This document shows positions 9,151-38,132 of a stretch of DNA of 47,575 nt, piece after piece. Below the pieces are notes generated by a model that saw only the letters and a program-made list of their open reading frames with translations, was not told the DNA's origin and searched no databases. Source of the DNA: Bacteroidales bacterium. Its GTDB lineage: Bacteria > Bacteroidota > Bacteroidia > Bacteroidales > VadinHA17. Each line of letters begins with the position of its first letter. Position 1 is the first letter of the stretch. The position numbers and the translations under genes were made by a program. The stretch spans positions 1 through 47,575 of the forward strand of contig JALOMO010000020.1 of assembly GCA_025455395.1 (NCBI GenBank). The letters are read 5' to 3'.

Positions 9151-11178
9151 TCAGTCCTTTACAAACTTATGAGTGCTGACTCCGGTGGCGGTGGTCACCC
9201 TGATGATATATGACCCACTGGCTAAGTGTCTTATATCCAGGTCATTATGCAGTATGTCACCGTTGATTGTCATGATCATTTTGCCCTGAATATCATAAAT
9301 TGAAATACTTAAGATATCTGCCTCTGTGCTGAAATATATTTTGTCAGTTGCAGGGTTGGGATAGATTGTGACATCACTTGCATATGCATGTTCTTCAACT
9401 GAAGTGATAACATCATTTGATGCTATCCAGCTTGATGCAATACTATTATCAAGGATCAGATCCTTAAGCTTCAGGTAGTAGCCGTTACCATCGGCATTTG
9501 GCCAGGGACTGACATCCGAATAAAGTACATAATCTATCACGTTGCCAAATGCGTCAGAAAGCACCAGGCTCTCGCTGCTGTTCGAAAGGTGTCGTGTAAA
9601 CTGACCAAAAGGAGCGAAGCCATACCTGCTCTGGAAAGCGGCGGTGTTGCTGGCGAGTATAACAGCCTGGAATGGCCCCAGAGTCGCATTTGCAGGAAAC
9701 TGATAGACCAGTCCTGTGCCGAGGAAATAAACACCGCTCAGGTTGACGGTAGTGTTGCTGTTGTTCCTTATCTCAAGGAATTCAAGGTCGTCATCGTCAG
9801 GGTACTGCGCCGTCGGAAGAGGATGATACATGATCTTTGTTATCACCAGTTTAGGCACGGGTACATCTGTGCAAGAAGAAAATGACCCTATGTTTGCTGT
9901 CATCCATGAGATACGGGCAGCGATGAATGATTTCATTGCGGTTACTCGCTGGGCATGTGTCCCGGTCTTGTTCCAGCGCTGGTATTCACGCGGTATTGCT
10001 TCGCTGATGCTGTCGGCATTAAGGTCAATGAATGCCTCGAGACTGGCCTGGTTAAGAGGCTGGCCGGGGGCAGTAAGCTCATTCCATCTTCTTGACAAGT
10101 AGCATCTGAATTGGGGATTGTAAAACAGATCACGCCAGAACCGTGATCCGTCATTGCCACCGTATTGGAATTGCCATACATTAGTTTTGCTCCTGTCAAG
10201 ACTCCACATGAAGAGATCGTTGCCATAGGTCAGGTCCAGGTCCCAAATAGGGCCTGCTCTCAGTTTCCCGTTCCTGTCCTTGTGAAAAAAGGTGCTGTAG
10301 GTGTAAGCATCGGCATTGGAGGCGAACTCATTGATCAGCATAAAGTCGATAAACGAGGGAATATCTATGATTGAAGGATAACCGTTCACTTCAGAGGCGT
10401 CCCCGTTCTTTGCAGCTGTCTCAAGCTTGAAGAACTCGCCCTTGATATAGTTTGTCTGCTGGCTTGTGACATCATCAGGATCAGGAAGGTCATGAATATA
10501 GTATACCGGATTATTAGTCCATGAGTACATGGTCCAGGCAATGGGGTCGCCGCCAGTTTGCTTGTCAGCTTTTGAGATATAACCTCCGGTGATAGCCGGG
10601 AATGTATTATCAGATTGGGTGATCTTGATGACGTCAACCCTGTTGTCATCAGACTTGATCTTCTCCTGCAGCATGTAAAGACCTTTGTAATCGTTGTTGA
10701 TAATGATCTCGCAATAGGAGGTTCTTGATGCATAATTACCAAGCTGCCTTGAAAGGTTATGACACAGGTAGTCACGCATCATTGCAGTGTCAAAAACCAT
10801 TCCTCCGAAGATCCAGTCGTTCTCCTCAGGCATCCCCAGAAGGCTGACATTATTATTGGTGACATCGTCAGCAAGGCGTGTTGTGAAGCCATAATTCTTT
10901 TTCGGGGAGACCTGTGACGAGGAGCCCCTTACTTCAATTCCTATGCGGCCATTGTAATCAAGGTAATCAGGATTGTTCTGGTCGGTGACATAGTTTCTCT
11001 GACCCGGTCCGCGGTAGATTATCTTCATCGTCGCCTTGACCTTTGGCTCATCAGGGATCGTAACTCCGCCGTCAGTATTAATGATGACAATAGGCAGGTT
11101 GCTGCTTGTAAGCGTCTGTGAGGCGACTGACAATCCTGTCAGAAAAAAGAGTACAACGGGTAGTAATAATATTCTCAT
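9151..11178 (-). CDS. Secreted CotH-kinase domain protein with lamin-tail domain and type IX sorting signal
   Basis: The protein has 675 residues from the chosen ATG at 11178, which opens a clear signal peptide (MRILLLPVVLFFLTGLSVAS). Upstream frame extension gives only an unlikely leader. The CotH kinase-like domain covers about 35-430, with YKGLYMLQEKIKSDD and the catalytic-type GPIWDLDLTYGN. A lamin-tail domain covers about 440-580 (VITKIMYHP, DLEFLEIRNNS). The C-terminal type A T9SS sorting domain begins about 604 (YPNPATDKIYFS) and ends in GSYIIRVTTATGVSTHKFVKD-type strands. CotH proteins are atypical protein kinases. The substrate here is unknown. Export by T9SS to the surface or medium is expected. 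Confidence 0.9.
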   Translation of the reverse strand: MRILLLPVVLFFLTGLSVASQTLTSSNLPIVIINTDGGVTIPDEPKVKATMKIIYRGPGQRNYVTDQNNPDYLDYNGRIGIEVRGSSSQVSPKKNYGFTTRLADDVTNNNVSLLGMPEENDWIFGGMVFDTAMMRDYLCHNLSRQLGNYASRTSYCEIIINNDYKGLYMLQEKIKSDDNRVDVIKITQSDNTFPAITGGYISKADKQTGGDPIAWTMYSWTNNPVYYIHDLPDPDDVTSQQTNYIKGEFFKLETAAKNGDASEVNGYPSIIDIPSFIDFMLINEFASNADAYTYSTFFHKDRNGKLRAGPIWDLDLTYGNDLFMWSLDRSKTNVWQFQYGGNDGSRFWRDLFYNPQFRCYLSRRWNELTAPGQPLNQASLEAFIDLNADSISEAIPREYQRWNKTGTHAQRVTAMKSFIAARISWMTANIGSFSSCTDVPVPKLVITKIMYHPLPTAQYPDDDDLEFLEIRNNSNTTVNLSGVYFLGTGLVYQFPANATLGPFQAVILASNTAAFQSRYGFAPFGQFTRHLSNSSESLVLSDAFGNVIDYVLYSDVSPWPNADGNGYYLKLKDLILDNSIASSWIASNDVITSVEEHAYASDVTIYPNPATDKIYFSTEADILSISIYDIQGKMIMTINGDILHNDLDIRHLASGSYIIRVTTATGVSTHKFVKD

Positions 11179-11199
11179 CCTTCGATCTGATGCCGGGTT

Positions 11200-11207
11200 C
11201 AAAGTTA
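11200..11207 (-). promoter_or_regulatory. candidate -7 element for the CotH gene
   Basis: Read on the minus strand this is TAACTTTG, a perfect match to the Bacteroidota -7 consensus TAnnTTTG, 22 bases upstream of the CotH ATG. No good -33 TTTG is seen at the usual spacing. The same spacer must hold the divergent thrB promoter; TATCTTTA at 11221-11228 on the plus strand is a weak candidate. Confidence 0.45.
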
Positions 11208-11260
11208 ATGTTTTATTATTTATCTTTAGCATTGCTGAATGTATCAAACCAGCCCGGTCA

Positions 11261-12190
11261 ATGAATAGGAGAGTAAGAGTAAAGGCACCTGCTACTGTTT
11301 CAAATCTGAACTGTGGATTTGATGTCATTGGCATGGCTATTAATGAGCCTTATGACATCGTCGATATTGAGCTGACAGATAATGGATTAATTGAGATAGC
11401 CGGGATAAGGGGATGTCAGAGCATCAGCAGGGATATTGATAAAAATGTTGCAGGAGCAGTGCTTAAAGCAATAATCTCAGCTACGGGAGTGAAGTGCGGC
11501 TTCAGAGTCATCATTGAAAAGGGAATTTTACCGGGAAGCGGAATCGGGTCAAGCGCAGCAAGCTCTGCCGCAACTGCTTTCGCAGCGAATATCCTTCTTG
11601 ACAATCGATTCACTCTTGCGGAGCTCGTTGCTTTTGCCATGGAGGGTGAAAGGCTTGCCTCAGGTTCGGCTCATGCGGATAATGTGGCGCCTGCAATTTA
11701 TGGAGGTATTACCCTTGTACGGAGCTATGAGCCTCTGGATATTATCCGGTTGAATATCCCTCCTGATCTCTGGAGCGTGGTGATTCACCCCCGGGCAGAG
11801 ATAAAGACCTCTGAGGCACGGAAGATACTTGACAAAGAGATACCGCTGTCAACCGCAGTAAGACAATGGGGTAATGTAGGAGGACTGGTTGCCGGTTTTT
11901 TTTCATCTGATTATGATCTTATAGGGCGGTCGCTGGTCGATTATGTTGCTGAGCCAAAGCGTTCAGCTCTCATCCCGGGGTTTGATATGCTCAGGAAGGC
12001 TGCCAATGAAGGAGGTGCGCTTGGATCAGGCATTTCAGGATCAGGACCTTCGGTCTTTGCTCTCTGCCGGGGAGAGGATACTGCCGGAGAGGTTCTGGTG
12101 AAGATGTCAGAGGTTATGAACTCTTCAGGGATAAGATTCAGCGGTTATTCTTCACCGGTGAACCATGAAGGAACAGTCAGATGCAATTAA
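11261..12190 (+). CDS. thrB: Homoserine kinase (GHMP kinase)
   Basis: Homoserine kinase phosphorylates L-homoserine with ATP to O-phospho-L-homoserine, the last step before threonine synthase. The 309 residues from ATG 11261 match the family. The start was chosen because MNRRVRVKAPATVSNLNCGFD is the typical ThrB beginning; the frame is open further upstream but lies inside the divergent CotH gene. The ATP-binding GHMP motif is GSGIGSSAASSAA, and the C-terminal GHMP motif is GSGISGSGPSVFAL. thrC follows 18 bp later. The usual third partner, thrA, is not in the window. Confidence 0.96.
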   Translation: MNRRVRVKAPATVSNLNCGFDVIGMAINEPYDIVDIELTDNGLIEIAGIRGCQSISRDIDKNVAGAVLKAIISATGVKCGFRVIIEKGILPGSGIGSSAASSAATAFAANILLDNRFTLAELVAFAMEGERLASGSAHADNVAPAIYGGITLVRSYEPLDIIRLNIPPDLWSVVIHPRAEIKTSEARKILDKEIPLSTAVRQWGNVGGLVAGFFSSDYDLIGRSLVDYVAEPKRSALIPGFDMLRKAANEGGALGSGISGSGPSVFALCRGEDTAGEVLVKMSEVMNSSGIRFSGYSSPVNHEGTVRCN

Positions 12191-17423: not shown

Positions 17424-17834
17424 ATGAAGAATCTATTGTTACTGATAATCATGGCATTACTGGTATCATTATCAGCATGCAGCAAGGATGAGGGCTCGGA
17501 TCGCTTTGACCTGATTACAGCACATATATGGAAGAGCGACAGTCTTCTGGCTGATGGCGTCGATGCCAGCGGTCCCGGACAGATACTTGAAAAATTCAAA
17601 GGCGACATCCAGTTCAAAAAGGATGGCACTGGTTACTTTGGGCAGTATACCGGAACATGGAGGCTGACCAATAATGATGCTAACCTCGTGATTCAGTCCC
17701 CGGAGTTGGTCGCTGCTGTAACAAGCACCATTATTGAATTGACAGAGACATCACTAAAGGTAAAATTCAGTTATCCGAATCTGGTCAATCCTTCTGATCC
17801 CCTTGACATTAGAATGACTTTCAAGCCCAAGTAA
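17424..17834 (+). CDS. Lipocalin-like small lipoprotein
   Basis: A 136-residue protein with a lipoprotein signal peptide (LLVSLSACSKDE, Cys19). It continues with a short beta-rich region (HIWKSDSLLADG, GDIQFKKDGTGYFGQYTGTW) that resembles the lipocalin-like DUFs common in Bacteroidota. Its stop overlaps the start of the TonB-dependent receptor by one base (TAATG), so the two are translationally coupled. A role as a surface or periplasmic helper of that receptor is inferred only from position. Confidence 0.75.
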   Translation: MKNLLLLIIMALLVSLSACSKDEGSDRFDLITAHIWKSDSLLADGVDASGPGQILEKFKGDIQFKKDGTGYFGQYTGTWRLTNNDANLVIQSPELVAAVTSTIIELTETSLKVKFSYPNLVNPSDPLDIRMTFKPK

Positions 17835-20083
17835 TGAGGAAAGCCTTTCTTGCCCTTTCATTATTGATATTCCTTTTACCTGCCCTGCTCAATGCTCAAA
17901 GTATTGTCAAGGGAAGGGTCTTTGACCTGGGCAGTGGTGAATCGCTGCCGGGAGTATATGTACTATTTGGAAAAAGCACTGGTACAACCACTGATGAACA
18001 GGGATTCTATTCAATAACATGCGACAGCGGGCAGGTTAACATAACCTTTAAGTTTGTCGGCTACAAGACAGTTACTAAAACGGTTAACCTTTCCGGACAT
18101 TTGCCATTTGAACTGAATGCAGGCCTTGAGACCGATGCGCTGGCGATAGATCAGATAGTTGTCAGCGCTGACAGGATGGAACAGAAGGTCTCTGAACTGA
18201 CTGTCTCTATGGATGTTATCAGAAATGACTACCTGGAAAGAAGTCATATCAGCGATGCAAAGGAACTTATTACCAAGACACCCGGGATAGAGGTTCTTGA
18301 CGGGCAGGCTTCAATCAGGGGAGGTAGCGGATTCAGTTATGGCGTAGGCAGTCGCGTTCTGGCTCTTCTCGATGGCCTTCCGCTTATGTCTGCTGATGCC
18401 GGAGGCATAAAATGGAATTTTTTACCATTTGAGAATCTCTCTCAGGTTGAGATAATCAAGGGAGCCTCATCAGTGATGTATGGCAGCTCAGCCCTGAACG
18501 GAGTGATAAACTTCAGAACAGCAGATGCAACAAATATTCCTGTCACGACATTCTATGCCGAGGGAGGTATATTCGGCAAATCAGGAAACGAAGAGTGGGT
18601 CTGGTGGGATGAGCCACGGATGTTTACCAATATATCATTCTCTCACTTGCGGAAATCAGGCAATACCGACGTAGGTGTCGGTCTCAGCCTGAGTGCCGAC
18701 AACGGCTACAGGAAATATAACTTCGAGAATCTTGGAAGGTTAAACATAAGACTTAAGCACTACAGCAAAAAGTTTGAAGGCCTGAGGTACGGTGTCAACC
18801 TGGGTGGCGGCACTACATGGAAGGCAGACTTCATACTTTGGGAAGATGCAGAAAAGGGAGCCCTGAAACAGGACACATCCACGGTCGCAAAGCTTAGGGG
18901 CTACCTCTTAACAGTCGACCCCTTCCTTTCATACAATAAAACAAACCGTTTCAGGCATGATCTGAGAATACGCTTTCAGTCATCAGCAAACAGGTTTCCT
19001 GTCAGAACAAACAATGATGCAGGATATGTTTCACTCTACGGAGAATACCAGTTATGGTACAGGTTGTTCGGTTTTATGGATATCACTGCCGGTGTTTCGG
19101 AAACATGGAATAAGGTTATCTCAAATTTTTATGGTGATCATGACGGTCTTAACCTTGCAGGATTTGCGCAAATTGAGGTAAGACCTGTCGAAAGGCTGAA
19201 GGTAGTCGGCGGGTTGCGTATCGAACAAAATATCCTTGATGGTGAGAATGACAAGGTTGTTCCTGTCTTCAGGGCAGGGGTGAACTGGCAGGTTGCTGAT
19301 TTTACCTTCATCAGGGCCTCTTTCGGCCAGGGTTACCGCTATCCCTCAATAGCTGAGAAACATGCTGCAACGACCCTCGGCTCGGTAAAGGTATTTCCAA
19401 ATCCATTCATAGAAGCTGAGTCAGGATGGAGTTCTGAGATAGGCATCAAGCAGGGTTTAATGATTGGTTCGGTGAAAGGACAGGGTGATCTTTCTTTTTT
19501 CTTTTCGCAGAACAGCGACATGATAGAGTATCTTTTCGGAATATTTCCTGATCCCGTAACAGGAATTTCCGGATTGGGATTTCAGGCTTCCAATGTTGAA
19601 CAGTCAAGGGTCTACGGTACCGAAGCCGAAATGCTCCTTGGCAGGTCATTCGGAGCAATGGAGGCAACTCTTTCGGGTGGCTATACCTATATCTACCCGG
19701 TGGAATTCAATTCCTATACCCATCAGAATACGGACCTTTACCTGAAATACAGGAGGAAGCATACAGCTAAGCTTGGATTTTTTCTGACCCGCAAAAGGTT
19801 TGACGCAGGATTTGATTTGTATGCTAGGTCAAAGATTCTTAGGATTGATGATGTTTTTCTGCATCCTGATACGAGGGAACTTATACTTCCCGGATTCTAT
19901 GATTACTGGCAGACGCACAATACCGGGTATTTCGCGATGGATGTCAATGCCGGATACAGGCTGAACGGGACTCTGACGCTTTCAATTTCAGTCAAGAACA
20001 TCACCAACACTGAGTACATGGGTCGCCCGGGTGACATCCAGCCTCACCGTAATTTCAGTATCAGGCTCAGCGGGAAGTTCTGA
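17834..20083 (+). CDS. TonB-dependent outer-membrane receptor with N-terminal carboxypeptidase-like domain
   Basis: A 749-residue receptor. It has a signal peptide (MRKAFLALSLLIFLLPALLNA) and a carboxypeptidase-regulatory-like domain about 24-105 (VKGRVFDLGSGESLPGVYV). The plug is about 120-230 (ELITKTPGIEVLDG, SIRGGSGFSYG, EIIKGASSVMYGSSALNGVI). A 22-strand-type barrel ends with NFSIRLSGKF and a terminal Phe. Unlike SusC it has no SusD partner, and its plug resembles cobalamin/siderophore-type receptors. The substrate is not known. Position just before the cytochrome locus makes iron or haem import an attractive but unproved idea. Confidence 0.9.
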   Translation: MRKAFLALSLLIFLLPALLNAQSIVKGRVFDLGSGESLPGVYVLFGKSTGTTTDEQGFYSITCDSGQVNITFKFVGYKTVTKTVNLSGHLPFELNAGLETDALAIDQIVVSADRMEQKVSELTVSMDVIRNDYLERSHISDAKELITKTPGIEVLDGQASIRGGSGFSYGVGSRVLALLDGLPLMSADAGGIKWNFLPFENLSQVEIIKGASSVMYGSSALNGVINFRTADATNIPVTTFYAEGGIFGKSGNEEWVWWDEPRMFTNISFSHLRKSGNTDVGVGLSLSADNGYRKYNFENLGRLNIRLKHYSKKFEGLRYGVNLGGGTTWKADFILWEDAEKGALKQDTSTVAKLRGYLLTVDPFLSYNKTNRFRHDLRIRFQSSANRFPVRTNNDAGYVSLYGEYQLWYRLFGFMDITAGVSETWNKVISNFYGDHDGLNLAGFAQIEVRPVERLKVVGGLRIEQNILDGENDKVVPVFRAGVNWQVADFTFIRASFGQGYRYPSIAEKHAATTLGSVKVFPNPFIEAESGWSSEIGIKQGLMIGSVKGQGDLSFFFSQNSDMIEYLFGIFPDPVTGISGLGFQASNVEQSRVYGTEAEMLLGRSFGAMEATLSGGYTYIYPVEFNSYTHQNTDLYLKYRRKHTAKLGFFLTRKRFDAGFDLYARSKILRIDDVFLHPDTRELILPGFYDYWQTHNTGYFAMDVNAGYRLNGTLTLSISVKNITNTEYMGRPGDIQPHRNFSIRLSGKF

Positions 20084-20146: not shown

Positions 20147-20662
20147 ATGAAAAGATCACTTTCAGAAACACTCGTCAAATCCGGAAAAATAGCTGTCACA
20201 GCTTTATCAATAATAATCAGTGGTATCTCCTGCAATCAATCTCCTAAAGGGGCGAAGGAGGCGGCAACGAAGGACACTCTCATCTCAACTCCGGGCAGGG
20301 AGACTGTTATGAGATCTGCCGATACTGCCACAGCACCAATTAAACCAGAAGATACAGAACAGCAGAAGCTTAAAGGACGGTGGATGAGGTCCGATGGCGA
20401 TTATATCATTGAAGTATTCGAAGTCTCAGGAGATGGTACACTTAAAGCCGGATATTATAATCCCACAAGCATTAATGTTGAAAAAGGGGAGTGGATTATC
20501 CAGGAAGAGAAGCTCTTCATGCAGGTCATACTTCGTGATGTGAACTATCCCGGCTCAACCTATACCCTGCAGTATGTGCCTGAAGATGACGCTCTCACCG
20601 GTAATTATTTCCAGGCGGTGGAGGGTATCAACTATGATGTATTATTTACCCGGAAGAAGTGA
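20147..20662 (+). CDS. Small lipoprotein of unknown function at the head of the cytochrome locus
   Basis: 171 residues. The signal peptide leads to a probable lipobox (IIISGISCNQS, Cys29). A low-complexity linker about 33-75 rich in Thr, Ala, Lys and Glu follows. The last 95 residues form a compact, probably beta-rich domain (GRWMRSDGDYIIEVF, DVNYPGSTYTLQY, GNYFQAVEGINYDVLF). No named domain was recognised with confidence. It stands 84 bp before the cytochrome-b-like gene on the same strand, so it may belong to the electron-transfer locus as a periplasmic accessory. Confidence 0.7.
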   Translation: MKRSLSETLVKSGKIAVTALSIIISGISCNQSPKGAKEAATKDTLISTPGRETVMRSADTATAPIKPEDTEQQKLKGRWMRSDGDYIIEVFEVSGDGTLKAGYYNPTSINVEKGEWIIQEEKLFMQVILRDVNYPGSTYTLQYVPEDDALTGNYFQAVEGINYDVLFTRKK

Positions 20663-20746
20663 ATTTATCATGAGTATCACTGATTTTCCGTAATCGTTTA
20701 TTGAGAAAAACATTATCTTACAGATATCTTCTCCGAATCAGATCAG

Positions 20747-21616
20747 ATGTCCAGAACTGTTCACAGAATATATCTCGGCCTGATGGTAATAACAGTAGGC
20801 GTCACCTTTGTCCTGCTTGCTGTCAATGGTGCAGAGTATTATCTTACCACCATTGAGGAAAGGGTATACCATGATGATCATGCTGTTCTTAAACCGAGCG
20901 GCATTACCGGTCATGGCATAGGGATATTCGGTTCTCTCTTCATGGTTGTTGGCGTTGGCTCATACATGGCAAGAAAGCGATACAGGTTCATGGCGCGCAT
21001 GGGCTTATTGAAGCATTGGCTTGAGTTTCACATTTTTCTCTGTACCCTCGGTCCCCTGCTGGTCCTCTTTCATACTGCATTTAAGTTCGGGGGGCTTGTT
21101 GCCGTAAGTTTCTGGAGTATGGTAGCGGTCTTTCTGAGTGGCATTGCAGGCAGATTCATATACCTCCAGATACCGCGTACTATTGAGGGCAGAGAGCTAA
21201 GCCTCAATGAAGTGAGAGCAATGAAGGGTAACCTGGCAGACCAGATAAAAACATCATACGATTTTGATGATGACAGCTATCACAGAATAATTGAAACAGT
21301 AAAACTAAACAGAGCTTCATCTTCCAGGGGAATCTTTGCCGGGTTATTAACACACTATTTTGAAGACAGAAGATCTGTCTTGTCTGTAAAGGAGATATTA
21401 AAAAGAAAAAAAATGCCTTCTTCTGATAACAGGGAAATTATTGCCCTTGTCAGAAAGGATATAAGACTCAGCAGGAGAATTGCAAGGTTGGACAAGATGA
21501 AGGAATTATTCGGATACTGGCATGTTGCCCACCTGCCATTTGCCCTTGTGATGCTTATAATAATGGTTATTCATATAGGTGTAACCCTGCTTTTTGGATA
21601 CAGATGGATCTTCTAG
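20747..21616 (+). CDS. Integral membrane protein with cytochrome-b-like paired histidines
   Basis: 289 residues with predicted membrane spans about 8-26, 54-73, 90-112, 115-140 and 260-283. Histidines lie as in dihaem cytochromes b: His95 and His109 are 14 residues apart in one span, and His262 and His276 are 14 apart in the last. His56 and His90 are further candidates. The loop about 145-255 is charged and probably cytoplasmic. No named family was recognised. The stop is one base from the start of the Fe-S/FAD oxidoreductase gene, so the two products probably act together, moving electrons between a cytoplasmic flavoprotein or quinone and the periplasm. Confidence 0.75.
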   Translation: MSRTVHRIYLGLMVITVGVTFVLLAVNGAEYYLTTIEERVYHDDHAVLKPSGITGHGIGIFGSLFMVVGVGSYMARKRYRFMARMGLLKHWLEFHIFLCTLGPLLVLFHTAFKFGGLVAVSFWSMVAVFLSGIAGRFIYLQIPRTIEGRELSLNEVRAMKGNLADQIKTSYDFDDDSYHRIIETVKLNRASSSRGIFAGLLTHYFEDRRSVLSVKEILKRKKMPSSDNREIIALVRKDIRLSRRIARLDKMKELFGYWHVAHLPFALVMLIIMVIHIGVTLLFGYRWIF

Positions 21617-21617
21617 A

Positions 21618-22949
21618 ATGAGCCTGCAAATTGAAAGCATATTGATTTACTCACTCGCGGCGCTGCTTTGTATTGCAGTTGTTGCTGTCTATATTTTCAA
21701 AAAAAGGAGAGAGTCAAGGATCGTTGACGGGAAGATAATGAAAGCGAAGGAGGAGGGAATGCATGAGCCTGTATCGCTTCATCCGTATGTAGACGTAAAC
21801 ACATGCATCCAGACCGGCGCATGTGTCGCAGCCTGTCCTGAAAAGGATATCCTCGGGATAAGAAACGGTAAGGCAACGATTATAAATGCATCGCAGTGCA
21901 TAGGACATGGAGCCTGTTTTCATGCATGTCCTACCGAAGCCATAACCCTCCGGATAGGAACGGAGAAGAGGGGAGTGGATCTGCCTCACGTAAACCAGAC
22001 TTTTGAGACTAATGTCCCGGGAATTTATATAGCCGGGGAACTGGGAGGGATGGGACTCATAAGAAATGCCGTTGAACAGGGCAGACAGGCGGTTGAAAAC
22101 ATTGCCAGGGTACTAAACAGGAATCATGATGCTTCATATGATCTAATAATAGTAGGTGCAGGGCCTGCCGGAATATCGGGTGCGCTGGCTGCAAAAAAAA
22201 TGGGGATGCATTTTTTGCTGCTGGAACAGGATACTCTCGGAGGGACGGTCTTTACCTATCCGCGAAGGAAAATAGTGATGACTTCGCCGATGGATCTGCC
22301 CTTGTACGGTAGGATAAGACTTTATGAAACAAGTAAGGCGGAACTGCTGGAGTTATGGCAGACAGTTCTCAGAAAAAATGAAATATCAGTGACTGAGAAT
22401 ACAAAGGTTGACTCAGTGACATCTGAGGGAACTCTTTTCAGGGTTAAAAGTGCTGGAGGTGATTCATTTACCTCCGCCAGTGTACTTCTTGCAACAGGAC
22501 GCAGAGGTACGCCCCGTAAACTAAATATCCCCGGCGAAGGGAAGGAGAAGGTGGCCTACAGGCTGCTGGAGCCGGAGGATATAGCAGGGAACAACATCAT
22601 AGTCGTCGGCGGTGGTGATTCTGCTGTTGAGTCCGCAATTTTACTTTCTGATCATAACAATGTAATACTCTCATACAGGGGAGAGGCCTTCAATCGTATC
22701 AAGCCGGGAAACAGCGAGACCCTGAAAAAAGCAATGCAGGAAGGCAAGTTGGATGTAAGACTGAGGAGTAACCTGATTTCTATTGCTGATAAGGAGGTTG
22801 AGATGACCGTTGAAGGTGCGTCTGAACAGGTAAAAGTTATGAATGACCTGGTCTATATCTTTGCAGGTGGAGAGCTTCCTTCCCAGTTTCTGGAGAAGGC
22901 AGGAATAAGCATTACAAGAAAGTTTGGGGAAACGGTAATGAAGCACTAA
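21618..22949 (+). CDS. Membrane-anchored Fe-S/FAD pyridine-nucleotide-disulfide-type oxidoreductase
   Basis: 443 residues from ATG 21618; the frame is open to 21594 but that overlaps the upstream gene. Order of parts: one N-terminal membrane span about 7-27, and a ferredoxin-like region about 57-110. A thioredoxin-reductase-like FAD/NAD(P) module follows from about 176 (LIIVGAGPAGISGA, then IIVVGGGDSAVESA, then VYIFAGGELPS). The Fe-S region has Cys63, Cys69, Cys73 (CIQTGACVAACP) and Cys94, Cys100, Cys104 (CIGHGACFHACP). Both lack the usual second cysteine, replaced by Thr66 and His97. There is no CxxC redox pair in the FAD part. It probably exchanges electrons with NAD(P)H and passes them to the adjacent cytochrome-b-like protein. 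Confidence 0.85.
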   Translation: MSLQIESILIYSLAALLCIAVVAVYIFKKRRESRIVDGKIMKAKEEGMHEPVSLHPYVDVNTCIQTGACVAACPEKDILGIRNGKATIINASQCIGHGACFHACPTEAITLRIGTEKRGVDLPHVNQTFETNVPGIYIAGELGGMGLIRNAVEQGRQAVENIARVLNRNHDASYDLIIVGAGPAGISGALAAKKMGMHFLLLEQDTLGGTVFTYPRRKIVMTSPMDLPLYGRIRLYETSKAELLELWQTVLRKNEISVTENTKVDSVTSEGTLFRVKSAGGDSFTSASVLLATGRRGTPRKLNIPGEGKEKVAYRLLEPEDIAGNNIIVVGGGDSAVESAILLSDHNNVILSYRGEAFNRIKPGNSETLKKAMQEGKLDVRLRSNLISIADKEVEMTVEGASEQVKVMNDLVYIFAGGELPSQFLEKAGISITRKFGETVMKH

Positions 22950-22954
22950 CTTTG
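22923..22954 (+). promoter_or_regulatory. Bacteroidota-type promoter for the multihaem cytochrome genes
   Basis: TTTG at 22923-22926 is followed after exactly 20 nt by TAACTTTG at 22947-22954, matching both halves of the Bacteroidota housekeeping promoter. It is embedded in the end of the FAD oxidoreductase gene; the TAA of the -7 element is that gene's stop codon. Transcription would start about 22960, some 60 bases before the first cytochrome ATG. Confidence 0.65.
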
Positions 22955-23019
22955 ATCATATTATTATCCTTCGGCAATAGATTCGTTTCCAGGGACGTTT
23001 ATCAATAAATCTGGTTTGA

Positions 23020-24618
23020 ATGCACAAGGCCACGGTTAAAATTATTGTCCTTTTTATTCTGTCTCTGTTCCATGGAGTGAGGCTTGAGGCACAGCTCTCT
23101 CCCGGAGACCTATCGGACCCTCACGCACATCTTGAAGGCATTTCCAACTGCACCCAGTGCCATGAGCTTGGAAATAAGGTTTCTGATGCCAGATGCCTGG
23201 CATGTCACACTGAGATAAAAACAAGAATATCAGCCGGCAAGGGGTATCACTCTTCAGCCGCGGTGAAGGGGAAGGCATGCTTCACCTGCCACAGTGAACA
23301 TAACGGGAAGAGCTTCAACCTCATTAGGTTGGATATAAGTAGTTTTGAACACTCTGCAACAGGATATACCCTATCCGGTTCACATGCGGTGCAGGAATGC
23401 TCATCATGTCATAAAAGATCCAATATAGCTGATCCGAAGATAAAGTCGAAGAAGAGAACTTACCTTGGCCTTGGTACCGCATGTCTGACATGTCATACCG
23501 ATTACCACCAGCAAACGCTCTCCTCTGCCTGCCTCGATTGCCACGGTTACGATAAATTTGTTCCGGCTACAAAATTTGATCATTCAACTGCAAAGTTCAG
23601 GCTCATCGGAAGCCACAAGAATGTTGAATGTATTAAATGTCACAAAAAGGTAACTGTAAGCGGCAAAGTCTTCCAGGAATTCAGGGGTGTCCTTTTCAGC
23701 AATTGTACTAACTGTCATTCAGACCCGCATAACAATCAGTTCGGGCAAAACTGTCGTCAGTGTCATACCGAAATTTCATTCCTTTCAGTTAAAGGGGGAA
23801 CCTCCGGGTTTGACCATAATAAAACAGCCTTCAGACTTGAAGGGATGCACCAGGCATTAGGATGCAAAGAGTGTCACAAAGGAAAAACCACAGATCCTCT
23901 CGCTCATAACAGATGCACAGATTGTCACACCGACTACCACAAGGGCCAGTTTGTTAAAAACGGGAAGCAGCCTGATTGCGCGGAGTGCCATACAGTTAAG
24001 GGATTCAGCCAGTTCAACTACACCGTTTCTCAGCATAATACAGGGCCGTTCCCGCTAAGAGGGTCACATGTCGCAACACCTTGTTTTGAGTGCCACAGGA
24101 AGCAGGAAAAGTGGAGCTTCAGAGGAATAGGAATAAGGTGTTCCGATTGTCATGTTGATGTTCACCGTGATATCATCCAGTCGAAATACTATGCTGATGC
24201 AGGGTGCAGCTCATGTCATTCTGAGAACAGATGGTCAGAGGTAACGTTTGACCATGCAAAGACAGGGTATACCCTGACTGGTGCACATTCCCGCCAGGTA
24301 TGCAGGGCTTGCCATTTCAGACCTGCCCCAGTCGGGGTGATAATGCAGAAGTTTGCAGGTCTGCAGGCTGACTGCGCTGCATGTCATACTGATAACCATT
24401 ACAGGCAGTTTGAAAAGAACGGGAGAACAAACTGCAGTGACTGTCATGGCACGGAGAACTGGAAGGCTTCAGAATTTGATCACAACCGCACGGGTTTCAA
24501 ACTCGACGGAAAACATGCGACAGTGCCCTGTGCCTCCTGTCATAAACCTCAAAAGGAGGGATCAACGGTATATATCAGATATAAAATTCCAGACTACAAA
24601 TGCGAATCCTGTCATTAG
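23020..24618 (+). CDS. 20-haem c-type cytochrome
   Basis: 532 residues with a Sec signal peptide (MHKATVKIIVLFILSLFHGVRLEA) and 20 CXXCH haem-attachment motifs. They run from CTQCH near residue 44 to CESCH, which are the last five residues. No lipobox is seen, so a soluble periplasmic or outer-membrane-associated protein is likely. A repeat recurs at least five times: a FDH start, then F/Y-x-L-x-G-x-H, then CxxCH (for example KFRLIGSH before CIKCH). This suggests growth by duplication of a two-haem unit. It is expected to act as an electron wire. Its end overlaps the next cytochrome gene by 19 bp. The exact terminal electron acceptor is unknown. Confidence 0.93.
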   Translation: MHKATVKIIVLFILSLFHGVRLEAQLSPGDLSDPHAHLEGISNCTQCHELGNKVSDARCLACHTEIKTRISAGKGYHSSAAVKGKACFTCHSEHNGKSFNLIRLDISSFEHSATGYTLSGSHAVQECSSCHKRSNIADPKIKSKKRTYLGLGTACLTCHTDYHQQTLSSACLDCHGYDKFVPATKFDHSTAKFRLIGSHKNVECIKCHKKVTVSGKVFQEFRGVLFSNCTNCHSDPHNNQFGQNCRQCHTEISFLSVKGGTSGFDHNKTAFRLEGMHQALGCKECHKGKTTDPLAHNRCTDCHTDYHKGQFVKNGKQPDCAECHTVKGFSQFNYTVSQHNTGPFPLRGSHVATPCFECHRKQEKWSFRGIGIRCSDCHVDVHRDIIQSKYYADAGCSSCHSENRWSEVTFDHAKTGYTLTGAHSRQVCRACHFRPAPVGVIMQKFAGLQADCAACHTDNHYRQFEKNGRTNCSDCHGTENWKASEFDHNRTGFKLDGKHATVPCASCHKPQKEGSTVYIRYKIPDYKCESCH

Positions 24619-25625
24619 TGTTGATCTGCAGCATCTTTCTCTTTTTCAGGCAGAAAGAAAGTCATCCGCATGGAGAGGATTTCAGGTTGAGCTGCGACTT
24701 ATGCCACAGTCCTGAAGGGTGGCATCTTGATACGAGCATTTATTCTTTTAATCATGATAAGACGAAGCTGCCGCTGACCGGTCAGCATACACAACTTGGA
24801 TGCAGGCTGTGTCATCCTACTCTTGTCTTTACTGATGCAAATACAGAATGCAATGACTGCCATACTGATATACATCAGTCAACCGTCGGGCAGGATTGTT
24901 CAAGATGTCATACGACCTTCTCATGGCTTGTGACCAGCATCACAGAAATTCACCAGATGAGCCGTTTTCCTCTCTTCGGAGCTCATCGCACTGCTGACTG
25001 CATTGACTGTCATCTGTCAGAAAGCCTTGTGCGCTTTGATGTCTTAGGGATTAACTGCATAGATTGTCATCGCGGTGATTACCAGGCAACGACTGATCCT
25101 GCACATGCTGAGGCCGGCTTTTCCGAGGACTGCACTGCATGCCACCCTGTCAATGCCCTGAGCTGGGATGGCGCAGGATTCATTCACAGCTTCTTCCCGC
25201 TCACGGAGGGCCATTCGGTTCCTGCCTGTAATGATTGTCACACTGCAGGAAGCTATGCCGGGCTCAGTTCTGATTGCTATTCGTGCCATCAGGCTGACTA
25301 TACTGCCACAACTAACCCCGTTCATTCAACAATGGGATTCCCGACAACATGCAACACGTGCCATACACTTGCCCCCGGATGGAGCCCGGCAAGATTCACG
25401 GAACATGACAGTCAGTCATTCCCCATCTATTCCGGGAATCATAAAGGTGCATGGTCTTCTTGTGCTGAATGCCATCCGAATCCAGCAAACTACTCACAAT
25501 TCACATGCCTGAGTTGTCATGAACATAATAAAACTGACATGGACAGCGAGCACAGAGGTGAAGACGGTTACTCATATGACAGTGCAGCATGTCTTGACTG
25601 TCACCCCAGGGGTGATGCGGATTAA
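24600..25625 (+). CDS. 13-haem c-type cytochrome
   Basis: 341 residues. A short signal peptide (MRILSLVLICSIFLFF) is followed by 13 CXXCH motifs, from CDLCH to CLDCH, which lies ten residues before the end (PRGDAD tail). The N-terminal part has the same two-haem repeat as the 20-haem protein (FNHDKTKLPLTGQH). The later part has a second repeat type (DYQATTDPAHAEAGF and DYTATTNPVHSTMGF, each leading to CxxCH). The start lies inside the upstream gene in another frame, which suggests translational coupling. Together the two proteins would hold 33 haems. It is probably the electron partner of the upstream cytochrome near the outer membrane. Confidence 0.92.
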   Translation: MRILSLVLICSIFLFFRQKESHPHGEDFRLSCDLCHSPEGWHLDTSIYSFNHDKTKLPLTGQHTQLGCRLCHPTLVFTDANTECNDCHTDIHQSTVGQDCSRCHTTFSWLVTSITEIHQMSRFPLFGAHRTADCIDCHLSESLVRFDVLGINCIDCHRGDYQATTDPAHAEAGFSEDCTACHPVNALSWDGAGFIHSFFPLTEGHSVPACNDCHTAGSYAGLSSDCYSCHQADYTATTNPVHSTMGFPTTCNTCHTLAPGWSPARFTEHDSQSFPIYSGNHKGAWSSCAECHPNPANYSQFTCLSCHEHNKTDMDSEHRGEDGYSYDSAACLDCHPRGDAD

Positions 25626-25652
25626 ATTAGAAAAAAGGAGAAAGGAGCAAGG

Positions 25653-25718
25653 AGGTTAAGGTTAAGGTTAAGGTTAAGGTTAAGGTTGAGGTTGAGGTTG
25701 AGGTTAAGGTTAAGGTTG
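25653..25718. repeat. (AGGTTR)11 hexanucleotide tandem array
   Basis: Eleven contiguous copies of AGGTTA or AGGTTG: five A-type, three G-type, two A-type and one G-type. The array is 66 bp long and starts 28 bp after the 13-haem cytochrome stop codon. Such arrays change length by slippage. Confidence 0.95.
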
Positions 25719-25742
25719 AGGGGTGATGTAAAATTGTTATTT

Positions 25743-25786
25743 CTCCTCCTGAGTCAGGAGGAGTACCCCGATCCGCCAGTTGGCGG
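25743..25786. repeat. REP-like double hairpin
   Basis: CTCCTCCTGA (25743-25752) pairs perfectly with TCAGGAGGAG (25754-25763) around one base. Just after it CCGCCA (25773-25778) pairs with TGGCGG (25781-25786). The flanking C- and G-runs extend the second stem. It looks like a dispersed intergenic palindromic repeat and not a terminator, because no T-run follows. Confidence 0.7.
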
Positions 25787-25840
25787 AAGGGGGGAGGTGG
25801 TATGTTTTCGGCTAGATTGAAGTGAGAGAATGTTTCATGA

Positions 25841-25942
25841 TGAAACAATAAAACAATGAAACAATGAAACAATGAAACCTTGAAACTATCAGACTTTCAG
25901 ACATTTGACCTTCAGACTTATGACCTTCAGACCTTCAGACAT
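25841..25942 (+). repeat. compound 8-bp-period array upstream of the beta-barrel gene
   Basis: Six TGAAACNN-type octamers (25841-25888, one as TAAAACAA) are followed by TCAGACNT octamers with shorter TTGACCT and ATGACCT units (25889-25942). The array ends 8 bases before the ATG at 25951. A near-identical arrangement precedes the MocA-like gene at 38133. Confidence 0.9.
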
Positions 25943-25950
25943 ATAATCCA

Positions 25951-27555
25951 ATGAGAATACTATCCTCCATATTGATAATCACCATGCTGGGCACCACATT
26001 AAATGCCCAGCCAGGAGTGGTTGAACGGGTGGGAAAGGTTTCTTTTATAAGCTCTCAGAATATCTATGTTAAATTCAAATCGGCAGAAGGAATAAATATC
26101 GGTGATACACTTTATATCCCCACTGGAGATGCGCTTTCTCCGGCACTTGTTGTTAATGGCTTGTCATCAGTCTCCTGTCTCTGCAGCTCAATTACCGGGC
26201 ATTTATTTGCGATAGATCATATAGTTATTGCCCGTATAATTGGTGATAGGGCAGATGGTGGTGCAAATGTGGTGGTTCCTGTGGAAAAAGTGGATGACCA
26301 ACCCGTCATGGCGGCAGACACCGTTACCGTAAACAGGAAGGTTGATCACAAACAAAAAGTACGGGGGACAATCTCGGTAAATTCCTATACTGCTTTTTCA
26401 GATACTGACAACCCAGTTTCACAACGCTTCAGATATACGTTATCACTGAATGTCCCGGCGATAGGGGGATCCGGATTTTCTTTTGAGACACACACATCAT
26501 TTAATCACAGACAGGGAGAATGGGATGTTGTGAAGGATAACATTTTCAGTGCTCTTAAAATATATAATCTCTCCGTCAGATACGATTTCAACAAATCAAC
26601 CCGGATCACAATAGGTAGAAAAATAAATCCCATGATCTCAAGTATGGGCGCTATTGACGGCATTCAGTTTGAGAAAAACATCAGGAATTTCTCTTTCGGT
26701 GTTATTGCCGGTTCAAGACCGGACTTTACAGATTACGGCTTTAATTTATCTCTCTTTCAATATGGTGCATGGCTCGGTTATTCAACGAAGAGCAATGGAA
26801 AATCAAGCCAGAGTTCGCTAGCCTATATTGAACAGACAAATGACTTTAAAACAGACAGGAGGTTTCTCTATTTTCAGCACTCAAACAGTCTTATAAGAAA
26901 TCTTAATCTGTTTACCTCTGCTGAGGTTGATCTCTTCATGATCGAGAACGGGGCACCGGTTACAACACTTGATCTTACCGGATTATATTTGTCGCTTTCA
27001 TACAGACTGTCAGGAAAAATTTCAATAACCGGTGCATATGATGCAAGGAAGAATGTTGTCTACTATGAAACATATAAGTCATTCACTGACAGGATACTGG
27101 AAGAGGAGATGAGACAGGGATACAGGCTGAATGGCAGCTGGCGGATCAACCCTAAGATGGCTACAGGTATACAGGCAGGATACCGGTTCCTGAAGAGTGA
27201 TCCTGTACCCACAAAAAGCATAAGTGGATATTATACTTACAACGACATTCCATTACTGAGATTGACTGCAACATTATCAGGATCTTATTTGATGACAAGC
27301 CATTCTGATCTGGTAATCGGAGGTATTGATCTGAGTAAGGATTTTTCGGGTGGCAGGTTCCGGTCAGGGATTGGTTACAGTTACGTAATGAACAGCCTGA
27401 CAGAAGGCAACATCAGTTTTGTGCAGCATATGGGAGAGTTCAATTTTGCATGGTATATTCTCGAAAAGCTATCCCTTGCTCTCAACTATGAGGGTACATT
27501 TGAGTCTGTTAACGCATTTAATACTCTGTACATTCAGCTCAGACAAAGATTCTGA
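25951..27555 (+). CDS. Predicted outer-membrane beta-barrel protein of the cytochrome locus
   Basis: 534 residues. A signal peptide (MRILSSILIITMLGTTLNAQ) precedes a short N-terminal domain about 22-95 (VERVGKVSFISSQNIYVKF) with a Cys-x-Cys (SCLCS). From about 125 on, alternating amphipathic strands with aromatic girdles follow, with tight turns as in beta-barrels (TRITIGRKINPMISSMG, NLFTSAEVDLFMIENG). The chain ends in LYIQLRQRF, a C-terminal Phe expected for outer-membrane insertion. No named family was recognised. Position after 20- and 13-haem cytochromes suggests an analogue of MtrB/PioB-type porins that house a cytochrome, but that is inference. Its start lies directly behind an 8-bp repeat array. 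Confidence 0.75.
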   Translation: MRILSSILIITMLGTTLNAQPGVVERVGKVSFISSQNIYVKFKSAEGINIGDTLYIPTGDALSPALVVNGLSSVSCLCSSITGHLFAIDHIVIARIIGDRADGGANVVVPVEKVDDQPVMAADTVTVNRKVDHKQKVRGTISVNSYTAFSDTDNPVSQRFRYTLSLNVPAIGGSGFSFETHTSFNHRQGEWDVVKDNIFSALKIYNLSVRYDFNKSTRITIGRKINPMISSMGAIDGIQFEKNIRNFSFGVIAGSRPDFTDYGFNLSLFQYGAWLGYSTKSNGKSSQSSLAYIEQTNDFKTDRRFLYFQHSNSLIRNLNLFTSAEVDLFMIENGAPVTTLDLTGLYLSLSYRLSGKISITGAYDARKNVVYYETYKSFTDRILEEEMRQGYRLNGSWRINPKMATGIQAGYRFLKSDPVPTKSISGYYTYNDIPLLRLTATLSGSYLMTSHSDLVIGGIDLSKDFSGGRFRSGIGYSYVMNSLTEGNISFVQHMGEFNFAWYILEKLSLALNYEGTFESVNAFNTLYIQLRQRF

Positions 27556-37860: not shown

Positions 37861-38132
37861 CAGGGAGCAGGGGCATGAGGCAAGGAGCGAGGGGCACAGG
37901 GTGCAGAGATATGAGATGTGAGATGTGAGTTATGAGATGTGAGATATGGGGAGTTCGAAGGGGTAATCGGTAATCAGTATTCGGTAAGCGGTGTTATCAG
38001 GTTTTGCGGTTATGCAGTTTTTAGTTATCGGTTATAGTGGAACTTTGAAACTCTGAAACTCTGAAACATTGAAACCTTGAAACAATATGACCTTCAGACC
38101 TTCAGACCTTCAGACCTTCAGACTTTAAGACC
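37861..38132. repeat. low-complexity spacer ending in a compound 8-bp-period array
   Basis: Purine-rich start (37861-37908), then ATGAGATGTGAG-type 7-8-bp repeats (37909-37950), GGTAATC-type repeats (about 37962-37992), then five TGAAACNN octamers (38046-38085), a TATGACCT unit (38086-38093) and four TCAGACYT octamers (38094-38125). TAAGACC then abuts the ATG at 38133. The same octamer order is found at 25841-25942. No gene is seen here. Confidence 0.9.

Follow-up and report, generated by a model that had tools for sequence, protein, structure and literature searches.

Outer-membrane barrels are paired with multihaem cytochromes in MtrCAB, MtoAB and PioAB, as they are at the locus described here. 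The Geobacter c7 polymers (3ov0 and 3oue, which we take to be GSU1996) are wires of three-haem units, and the haems of a c7 domain are spaced 24/14/35. Ignavibacteria are a class placed by GTDB in Bacteroidota. OmbB-type and MtrB-type porin-cytochrome conduits have been reported in that class, found there with Geobacter and Shewanella porin models (PMC7399161), and are likened to our locus by description. In PCC3, the inner-membrane protein is described as having ~300 aa, five transmembrane (TM) segments, two WX3HX13H motifs and an SGXXG motif (He et al. 2017, PMC5566968); periplasmic cytochromes are predicted to carry 21, 24 or 27 haems, and extracellular ones 10-35 in Gallionellaceae and up to 85 elsewhere (PMC5566968, PMC10734462). 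PCC4 likewise has a porin, multihaem cytochromes and an inner-membrane protein with the same motifs; He et al. assign the PCC3 and PCC4 inner-membrane proteins to different families, and for PCC4 also list further redox proteins, among them an Fe-S protein of Subgroup II (PMC5566968).

The locus lies in a stretch of 47,575 nucleotides from a Bacteroidales bacterium (the window). An earlier note on this DNA had read six neighbouring genes as an electron conduit from cytoplasm to surface. The ORF check recovered all six on the + strand where they had been placed, and the details held: the translations of the adjoining cytochromes contain 20 + 13 = 33 CXXCH motifs, the membrane protein has two pairs of histidines 14 residues apart (H95/H109 and H262/H276), a single base separates its stop, ending at 21616, from the reductase ATG at 21618, and the barrel protein ends in Phe. 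For the reductase we preferred this start (443 aa) over a longer TTG ORF from 21594. The C20 and C13 genes overlap by 19 bases. A promoter/terminator scan found terminator-like sites at chance level (6 vs 6.9 expected) and 24 promoter-like sites vs 13.7 expected.

Table 1. Features of the locus, in window coordinates.
Feature	Position	Strand	Description
TonB receptor gene	17834-20083	same as module	upstream
Small predicted lipoprotein	20147-20662	+	outside the conserved module
cytb	20747-21616	+	predicted 5-TM di-haem b-type membrane protein
reductase	21618-22949	+	TM-anchored Fe-S/FAD protein, 443 aa
C20	23020-24618	+	20-haem c-type cytochrome
C13	24600-25625	+	13-haem c-type cytochrome
C13-barrel gap	25626-25950		partly short tandem repeats: AGGTTA x11.5, ATGAAACA x5.9, TCAGACCT x6.8
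barrel	25951-27555	+	outer-membrane beta-barrel

The cytb product is a putative di-haem b-type membrane protein. WX3HX13H occurs in TM3 (W91-H95-H109) and again in TM5 (W258-H262-H276), with SGXXG on TM4 at residues 131-135 (helices judged by eye), and W91, H95, H109, S131, G132, G135, W258, H262 and H276 are invariant in 28 aligned sequences. Among 116 non-redundant cytb ORFs, 111 have both WX3HX13H motifs and SGXXG, and the remaining 5 have one motif and SGXXG. The protein matched nothing in Pfam or NCBIfam at E 0.01 and found no relative among PDB sequences (best E 0.5). Five pattern matches on viral contigs proved unrelated to it.

These features, five helices by eye included, are those of the PCC3 inner-membrane protein, and as in PCC3 a porin-type barrel adjoins. 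By analogy with the published PCC3 description, the locus would thus be a PCC3-like system to which a flavoprotein of the NAD(P)H type, apparently circularly permuted, has been added, and the earlier remark that no named system is known with exactly this set is partly wrong, since PCC3 and PCC4 share the inner-membrane motifs, the porin and the multihaem cytochromes (He et al. 2017). The wires are also alike, being built from repeats with about 26 residues per haem (PMC5566968, PMC10734462). Both cytochromes are giant here, at 20 and 13 haems; of the two in PCC3, one is predicted to be periplasmic and one extracellular. The differences are that the PCC3 passages in these two papers name no flavoprotein, that PCC3 porins are predicted to have up to 42 strands vs 22 here, that PCC3 hosts are mostly Proteobacteria, whereas our module is found in Bacteroidota, and that the PCC3 extracellular haem numbers given (10 to 16, 18, 26, 28 and others) depart from the 7+3n series described below. 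The three periplasmic cytochromes of PCC4, with 4, 5 and 10 haems, include no giant wire, unlike those with 20 and 13 here.

Five of the six genes (cytb, reductase, C20, a cytochrome of 7+3n haems, and barrel) are a conserved module. The reductase and the barrel each occur in 30 of 295 genomes of the order and coincide in 29, so that the barrel is co-conserved with the module in relatives, a point on which the earlier note had left its own reading vulnerable. All five genes share a strand at 25 of the 32 order-level loci, at 51 of 80 genome_contigs loci (which share some genomes with the order-level set) and at 17 of 20 loci elsewhere in the phylum. Our ORF caller is crude. It keeps the longest reading frames from ATG, GTG or TTG, with a minimum of 70 aa, and gives up a true gene where a longer antisense ORF covers it; as a result, many proteins are extended at the start, a number of genes escape it, and broken genes are reported in fragments. 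When re-checked, almost every exception to synteny turned out to be a locus cut by the end of a sequence stretch or a b gene missed by this caller; the b gene is present in L069 (288 aa), L155 (289 aa) and L198 (a 290-aa ORF at the place searched), and the reductase match of L129 falls on a 442-aa ORF. In L145 some 14 kb interrupt the module.

The lipoprotein, to which an accessory role had been ascribed from its position, does not belong to this module, nor does the TonB receptor: neither is conserved beside it. The lipoprotein has a weak lipobox (GISC, by eye) and no Pfam or NCBIfam match, and precedes the module in one of 32 order-level loci (L014, same genus; one of the 27 with an upstream gene, 5 having none) and in none of the 80 genome_contigs loci (9 without one). 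Here and in two loci of the same genus, L014 and L016, a TonB receptor gene stands upstream in the orientation of the module; in the rest of the 32 order-level loci, the four genes upstream include no relative of that TonB gene on the module strand.

The b protein was found in 7 of 60 close relatives, own genome counted, and the module is therefore dispensable. A plasmid of Emticicia oligotrophica carries all five genes and a CcsA cytochrome c assembly gene, and on the four distant plasmid relatives examined (Alteromonas, Spirosoma, Bradyrhizobium and Methylophaga) the reductase is annotated as 2Fe-2S or FAD/NAD(P)-binding and the b gene follows directly. Besides E. oligotrophica, isolates with the module are Prolixibacter denitrificans (with a 16-haem wire), Maribellus luteus, Mangrovibacterium lignilyticum and Phaeodactylibacter xiamenensis; some of these isolates are aerobes.

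What is new here is a first cytochrome of near-constant haem number beside a second that grows by threes. C20, which has a signal peptide (by eye), contains 20 CXXCH where 2000 shuffles of the same residues gave a mean of 0.24 and a maximum of 4, and 108 of 121 complete ORFs of its kind have 20 or 23 haems. It matched Cytochrome_C7 in Pfam (E 1.2e-24) and, among PDB sequences, the c7 polymer 3ov0_A (E 4.9e-11) and 6r2q_A (E 2.2e-4; presumably MtrA). It is not a decahaem MtrA/DmsE protein, matching the DmsE family in part only, at 35.8 bits against a cut-off of 192.2.

C13 has 13 CXXCH between residues 32 and 331 (shuffles: mean 0.17, maximum 3, n = 2000), spaced 36-16-16-34-19-25 in a seven-haem head, then 32-16-25 and 37-15-28, that is, a head and two three-haem modules (7+3n, n=2). 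The rule is obeyed by 98 of 108 complete ORFs of the second cytochrome when CX3CH and CX4CH are counted as haem sites, a choice made after 42-residue gaps were noticed, and by 86 of 108 with CXXCH alone. A standard head is present in 99 ORFs, 91 of which follow the rule (80 with CXXCH alone); among the 9 others, 7 fit arithmetically, including at least one gene piece (L119) and two with a different head (L195 and L196). Ten ORFs deviate, of which five are probably pieces of broken genes (two in L082, two in L071 beside masked letters, and one in L119), the others having 12 haems (L018, L073 and L135), 30 (L095) and 9 (L201). Two more ORFs, of 94 and 73 haems, were completed after this count and also fit, and the range across relatives is 13 to 94. 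The spacing order, near 25/32/16, differs from that of c7 domains, and the variable cytochrome did not match 3ov0 at E 0.01. Inspection by eye showed neither a lipobox nor a surface-sorting domain that would explain its passage beyond the barrel. The apo model of C13 is too poor for placement or fold search (pLDDT 64.4).

The earlier note had allowed that the barrel might prove too narrow for haem proteins. The AlphaFold2 model (mean pLDDT 82.0, pTM 0.61) speaks against this, predicting an N-terminal beta domain (23-97) followed by 22 strands (138-533). The 50 Foldseek matches listed of 315 at E up to 0.001 were outer-membrane barrels with TM-scores by query of at most 0.43, and MtrB was not seen among those 50, so that the match means a large outer-membrane barrel and no more. 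At E 0.01 the protein fell into no Pfam or NCBIfam family (Pfam includes an MtrB_PioB model), and it had no relative among PDB sequences (best E 0.11), and hence does not join the barrel family of MtrAB, MtoAB and PioAB; MtrB has 28 strands according to He et al. (PMC5566968). Covariation with the barrel (partial r) was 0.46 for the seven-haem head, 0.42 for C20 and 0.17 for the C-terminal end of the variable cytochrome, with 0.41 between head and C20; head-barrel is slightly above every other pair in a weak test, barely exceeding the C20 pairs and run without an unrelated control gene.

Of the five proteins, the reductase varies least (mean distance 0.39 vs 0.49-0.64 for the others). It matched Pyr_redox_3 (E 1.6e-43) and Fer4_10 (E 4.2e-10) in Pfam and consists of one N-terminal TM anchor, a ferredoxin-like part with two three-cysteine sites and an FAD/NAD(P) domain that is apparently circularly permuted, its second FAD-binding stretch standing in front (residues 113-172). 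The nearest solved FAD/NAD(P) domains are those of the YpdA/Bdr bacillithiol-disulfide reductases (7a7b and 7a76; E 1.6e-38), a resemblance that would suggest NADPH specificity. It is not a YpdA, however, matching TIGR04018 in part at 156.7 bits (cut-off 339.9) and differing in the permuted order, the Fe-S part and the anchor. A disulfide-reductase role is ruled out by its seven cysteines, one in the TM segment and six in the Fe-S part; the cysteine of the YpdA GPCG motif is replaced by Ala here, so that no disulfide chemistry is expected. The permuted flavoprotein, its three-cysteine sites and the 7+3n rule were absent from the earlier note.

We consider it fairly probable that the module is a trans-envelope conduit, fed with NAD(P)H from the cytoplasm and running outward. 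The earlier conduit reading survives in part, carried by the five-gene synteny, the co-occurrence of barrel and reductase and the 22-strand model, and shorn of the lipoprotein. NAD(P)H would give hydride to the flavoprotein, which would hand single electrons to the di-haem b protein by way of two Fe-S sites; in the b protein, haems held by H95/H262 on the inner side and H109/H276 on the outer would carry them across the inner membrane. C20 is the probable wire spanning the periplasm: being near-constant in length beside a partner of 13 to 94 haems, it alone of the two suits a fixed gap. At the barrel the 7+3n cytochrome would take over, with its constant head lodged inside or next to the barrel and the 3n-haem tail directed toward or beyond the cell surface and a presumed terminal acceptor. 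Electrons leaving by such a chain would run down the membrane potential and conserve no energy. More tentatively, and with the balance against it, the second cytochrome may be a length-tunable, NAD(P)H-powered haem wire in a single polypeptide, whose head plugs the 22-strand barrel and whose protruding tail is lengthened or shortened, over that range, by duplication or deletion of three-haem modules, the rest of the machine unaltered.

It is unlikely, in our estimate, that the same conduit is coupled to the quinone pool or runs inward, taking up electrons from Fe(II), Fe(0) or humics, with the flavoprotein as a branch reducing NAD(P)+ or a side acceptor. Two haem-copper oxidase genes in the host genome would suit such a scheme, but the strong conservation of the reductase is unlike that of a side branch, and inward flow to NAD(P)+ would have to run uphill and counter to the membrane potential. 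For PCC3 and PCC4, He et al. (2017, PMC5566968) proposed coupling to quinones and a donor of electrons outside the cell, and P. denitrificans, which has the locus, is described as corroding Fe(0) in a nitrate-dependent way, although the cause of corrosion named in its paper is nitrite. Improbable, to a greater degree, is a system confined to the periplasm, in which the cytochromes serve as an electron store or supply a periplasmic reductase, with the barrel as an ordinary porin: neither cytochrome has a visible surface anchor (by eye), and a long haem chain could act as a capacitor, an idea also in PMC10734462, but the barrel adjoins and co-occurs with the module, the 12 widest similarity groups among 730 neighbour ORFs include no CXXCH protein (a count of haem proteins only), and a 94-haem chain, if extended, would far exceed the width of the periplasm. 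An assimilatory ferric reductase at the surface, helping the adjacent TonB receptor to take up iron, is very improbable, even with the HX13H pattern, which in b proteins of this kind He et al. (PMC5566968) liken to ferric reductases, as that neighbour is shared with L014 and L016 alone of the order-level loci and 33 to over 100 haems would be a costly outlay for an iron-saving system.

If the conduit reading is true, Bacteroidota, a phylum seldom tied to surface electron transfer, would have a conserved conduit of their own, and the flavoprotein suggests NAD(P)H, not quinols, as its electron source. The 7+3n series amounts to a natural experiment in the effect of wire length on electron transfer, and the presence of the module in named isolates makes it experimentally testable now. 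Were the wire indeed tunable, its length would be an evolvable setting matched to habitat.

Haem motifs were counted in the complete ORFs of 134 loci, with identical C-terminal ends collapsed to one. Among 121 ORFs of the first cytochrome (C20), 87 carry 20 haems, 21 carry 23, four carry 19 and one carries 25, the other eight being shorter pieces. The second cytochrome (the wire) opens with a head of seven haems at near-constant spacing (36-16-16-34-19-25), followed by a repeating three-haem module of approximately 73-80 residues. Its haem number equals 7+3n in 98 of 108 complete ORFs when CX3CH and CX4CH are included (86 with CXXCH alone) and in 91 of the 99 with a standard head; chance alone would give a third, though relatives are not independent. 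Fitting standard-head wires bear 13, 16, 19, 22, 25, 28, 31, 34, 37, 40, 43, 46, 52, 55, 61, 64, 67, 70 or 82 haems; that of the window, with 13, lies at the short end. Two wires completed later and used as a test, L140 (94 haems) and L145 (73), both obey the rule. Tandem repeats at the DNA level, of 219 (71% matches) and 444 bases (69%) in L142 and of 429 bases (89%) in L097, point to wire growth by duplication. The 82-haem wire belongs to the isolate Phaeodactylibacter xiamenensis and the 94-haem wire to a Saprospiraceae MAG. In 2017 the largest such protein on record was said to have 85 haem sites, and a larger one, from a Borg, has reportedly been described since; what is new about these wires is therefore not their size.

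The barrel, which the earlier note had joined to the cytochromes, is indeed co-conserved with the module. Among 295 genomes of the order, the reductase (E ≤1e-30, five candidates scored per genome) was matched in 30, at 58% identity or more, and the barrel (profile search, E ≤1e-10) in 30, with 29 common to both; G231 has the reductase without the barrel (on short contigs) and G104 the reverse. The b protein, a predicted di-haem membrane protein, occurs in 7 of 60 close relatives, its own genome counted, and is therefore patchy even within the genus. Neighbourhoods were compared in three sets with some genomes in common: 32 loci at order level, loci of the best 80 of 454 relatives in genome_contigs, and 20 phylum loci drawn from the 43 genomes with the b protein among 395. 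The five genes share a single strand in 25, 51 and 17 of these, respectively. On re-examination, six of the seven order-level exceptions are cut by the end of the stretch and L069 does carry the b gene; 28 of the 29 genome_contigs exceptions extend to 450 bases or less from where the available stretch stops; and of the three phylum exceptions, L198 proves to carry the b gene, L204 is truncated, and in L200 the second cytochrome (25 haems) scored best as C20. L140, cut by the flank taken, has a complete module in its genome, with the barrel adjoining the wire. In L145 about 14 kb separate cytb, reductase and C20 from the wire, and the barrel is on that contig too. The lower number of exceptions and the two fitting wires (L140 and L145) are in favour of the module. 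In several phylum loci the reductase comes last, after cytb, C20, C13 and barrel, or cytb is followed by a TPR gene.

Among accessory genes, 730 neighbour ORFs were clustered by similarity. The widest group was a putative lipoprotein of ~245 aa behind the barrel (27 loci), which in Emticicia matches Pfam GW (E 1.4e-6); next came an upstream protein resembling the cytochrome c assembly factors CcsA/ResB (13 loci; L018, L144 and L205 tested with Pfam) and a TPR protein (11 loci). None of the three adjoins the window's module. Its genome has a single CcsA match, on a different contig, two haem-copper oxidase matches and, elsewhere, three more cytochrome c3-like matches. The Emticicia oligotrophica plasmid pEMTOL02 carries the five genes (23 + 40 haems) together with CcsA. 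In one group of four loci, C20 and the wire are separated by a gene of 487-512 aa predicted to be lipoprotein-like.

Coordinates of the b gene, accessory genes and side observations
Feature	Sequence	Position
cytb (b protein)	window	20747-21616
~245-aa putative lipoprotein, 3' of barrel	L095	17002-17736
same	L114	18379-19122
same	L132	15577-16317
same	L139	15951-16694
same	L205	20713-21483
487-512-aa lipoprotein-like gene	L130	13021-14559
same	L134	3616-5079
same	L135	12981-14444
same	L143	10499-11965
Cytochrome c3-like match (L001)	G000	C128:34314
Cytochrome c3-like match (L002)	G000	C190:3397
Cytochrome c3-like match (L004)	G000	C85:15557
Short tandem repeats, first gap	window	25653-25940
Short tandem repeats, second gap	window	37906-38132
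CotH-like protein	window	9151-11334

In the window, all six ORFs described earlier are genuine and in the order given, and the haem-motif counts, residue spacings and one-base gap between cytb and reductase were all right. ATG 21618 is the best choice of reductase start. The cytochrome genes overlap by 19 bases, and the 325-base gap from C13 to the barrel contains short tandem repeats. Such repeats (AGGTTA, ATGAAACA, GACCTTCA-like and others) occupy two intergenic gaps, the GACCTTCA-like 8-base unit being present in both. The host probably has type IX secretion, since a CotH-like protein carries the corresponding tail.

The b protein matched no Pfam or NCBIfam family. Its invariant residues match the account that He et al. 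(2017; PMC5566968) give of the inner-membrane protein of the predicted porin-cytochrome conduits PCC3 and PCC4: a WX3HX13H motif on each of helices 3 and 5, and SGXXG on helix 4, a set interpreted as binding two b haems in the manner of ferric reductases. Beyond the four putative ligands, H56 and H259 are also invariant, possibly to bind a third haem or a quinone. A tblastn search of plasmids gave 20 records, Emticicia at 52% identity and the other 19 at 22-26%. Five neighbourhoods were examined; each of the four distant ones has, immediately upstream of the b gene, a reductase annotated as 2Fe-2S or FAD/NAD(P)-binding, and three have a cytochrome gene immediately downstream (Spirosoma, an unnamed gene). 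This arrangement suggests that a soluble donor feeds the b protein through exchangeable reductases.

The closest PDB relative of the reductase's FAD/NAD(P) part is YpdA/Bdr. Residues 113-172, ahead of this part, match a stretch that in other such enzymes is the second to bind FAD and lies behind the NAD(P) domain. FAD/NAD(P) oxidoreductases made up 32 of 38 rows in a search with these residues (best E 0.011, single rows weak), and the consistent place of the match argues for a circular permutation. Both ferredoxin sites lack their second cysteine. Of 122 non-redundant ORFs, 120 fit the search pattern for these sites (misfits: L136 and L150). In those 120 the position holds His throughout at the second site, and Thr (59), Ser (53) or Cys (8) at the first, suggesting a 3Fe-4S cluster or an unusual ligand.

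In the barrel model (mean pLDDT 82.0, pTM 0.61), residues 23-97 form a small beta domain at the N-terminus and residues 99-132 a linker of low confidence, and the 22 long strands run from residue 138 on; the Foldseek matches listed were outer-membrane barrels, with low TM-scores. The 22-strand barrels of TonB receptors enclose an entire plug domain, so a cytochrome could fit, and the modelled barrel, at 22 strands, is not narrow.

PCC3 is the nearest known kind. There were earlier hints of conduits in the phylum: passages in He et al. (2019; PMC6344600) name 'a number of Bacteroidetes' as having putative novel PCCs, without giving detail; a 2021 anode study (PMC8258643) describes one Bacteroidetes MAG in which six cytochrome genes are clustered with a single barrel; and PMC7399161 includes OmbB- and MtrB-like conduits in Ignavibacteria. 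In the papers listed by literature searches, titles and abstract openings mentioned neither a 7+3n rule nor this set of genes in Bacteroidota.

The constant length of C20 suits it to a gap of constant width, and it would bridge the periplasm; the wire, whose length varies sevenfold, does not suit such a gap, and most of it should therefore be found at the barrel or beyond it. For PCC3, the Gallionellaceae survey (PMC10734462) makes the same periplasmic/outer division, its modelled wires being long and mostly linear. Covariation over 65 loci (partial r: head-barrel 0.46, C20-barrel 0.42, head-C20 0.41, C-terminal end-barrel 0.17) agrees weakly with a head placed at the barrel. The proposed outward direction is argued from energetics. 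The module probably works by passing electrons from NAD(P)H through FAD, Fe-S and two b haems to C20, from which the wire, located at the barrel, would deliver them to an acceptor outside the cell.
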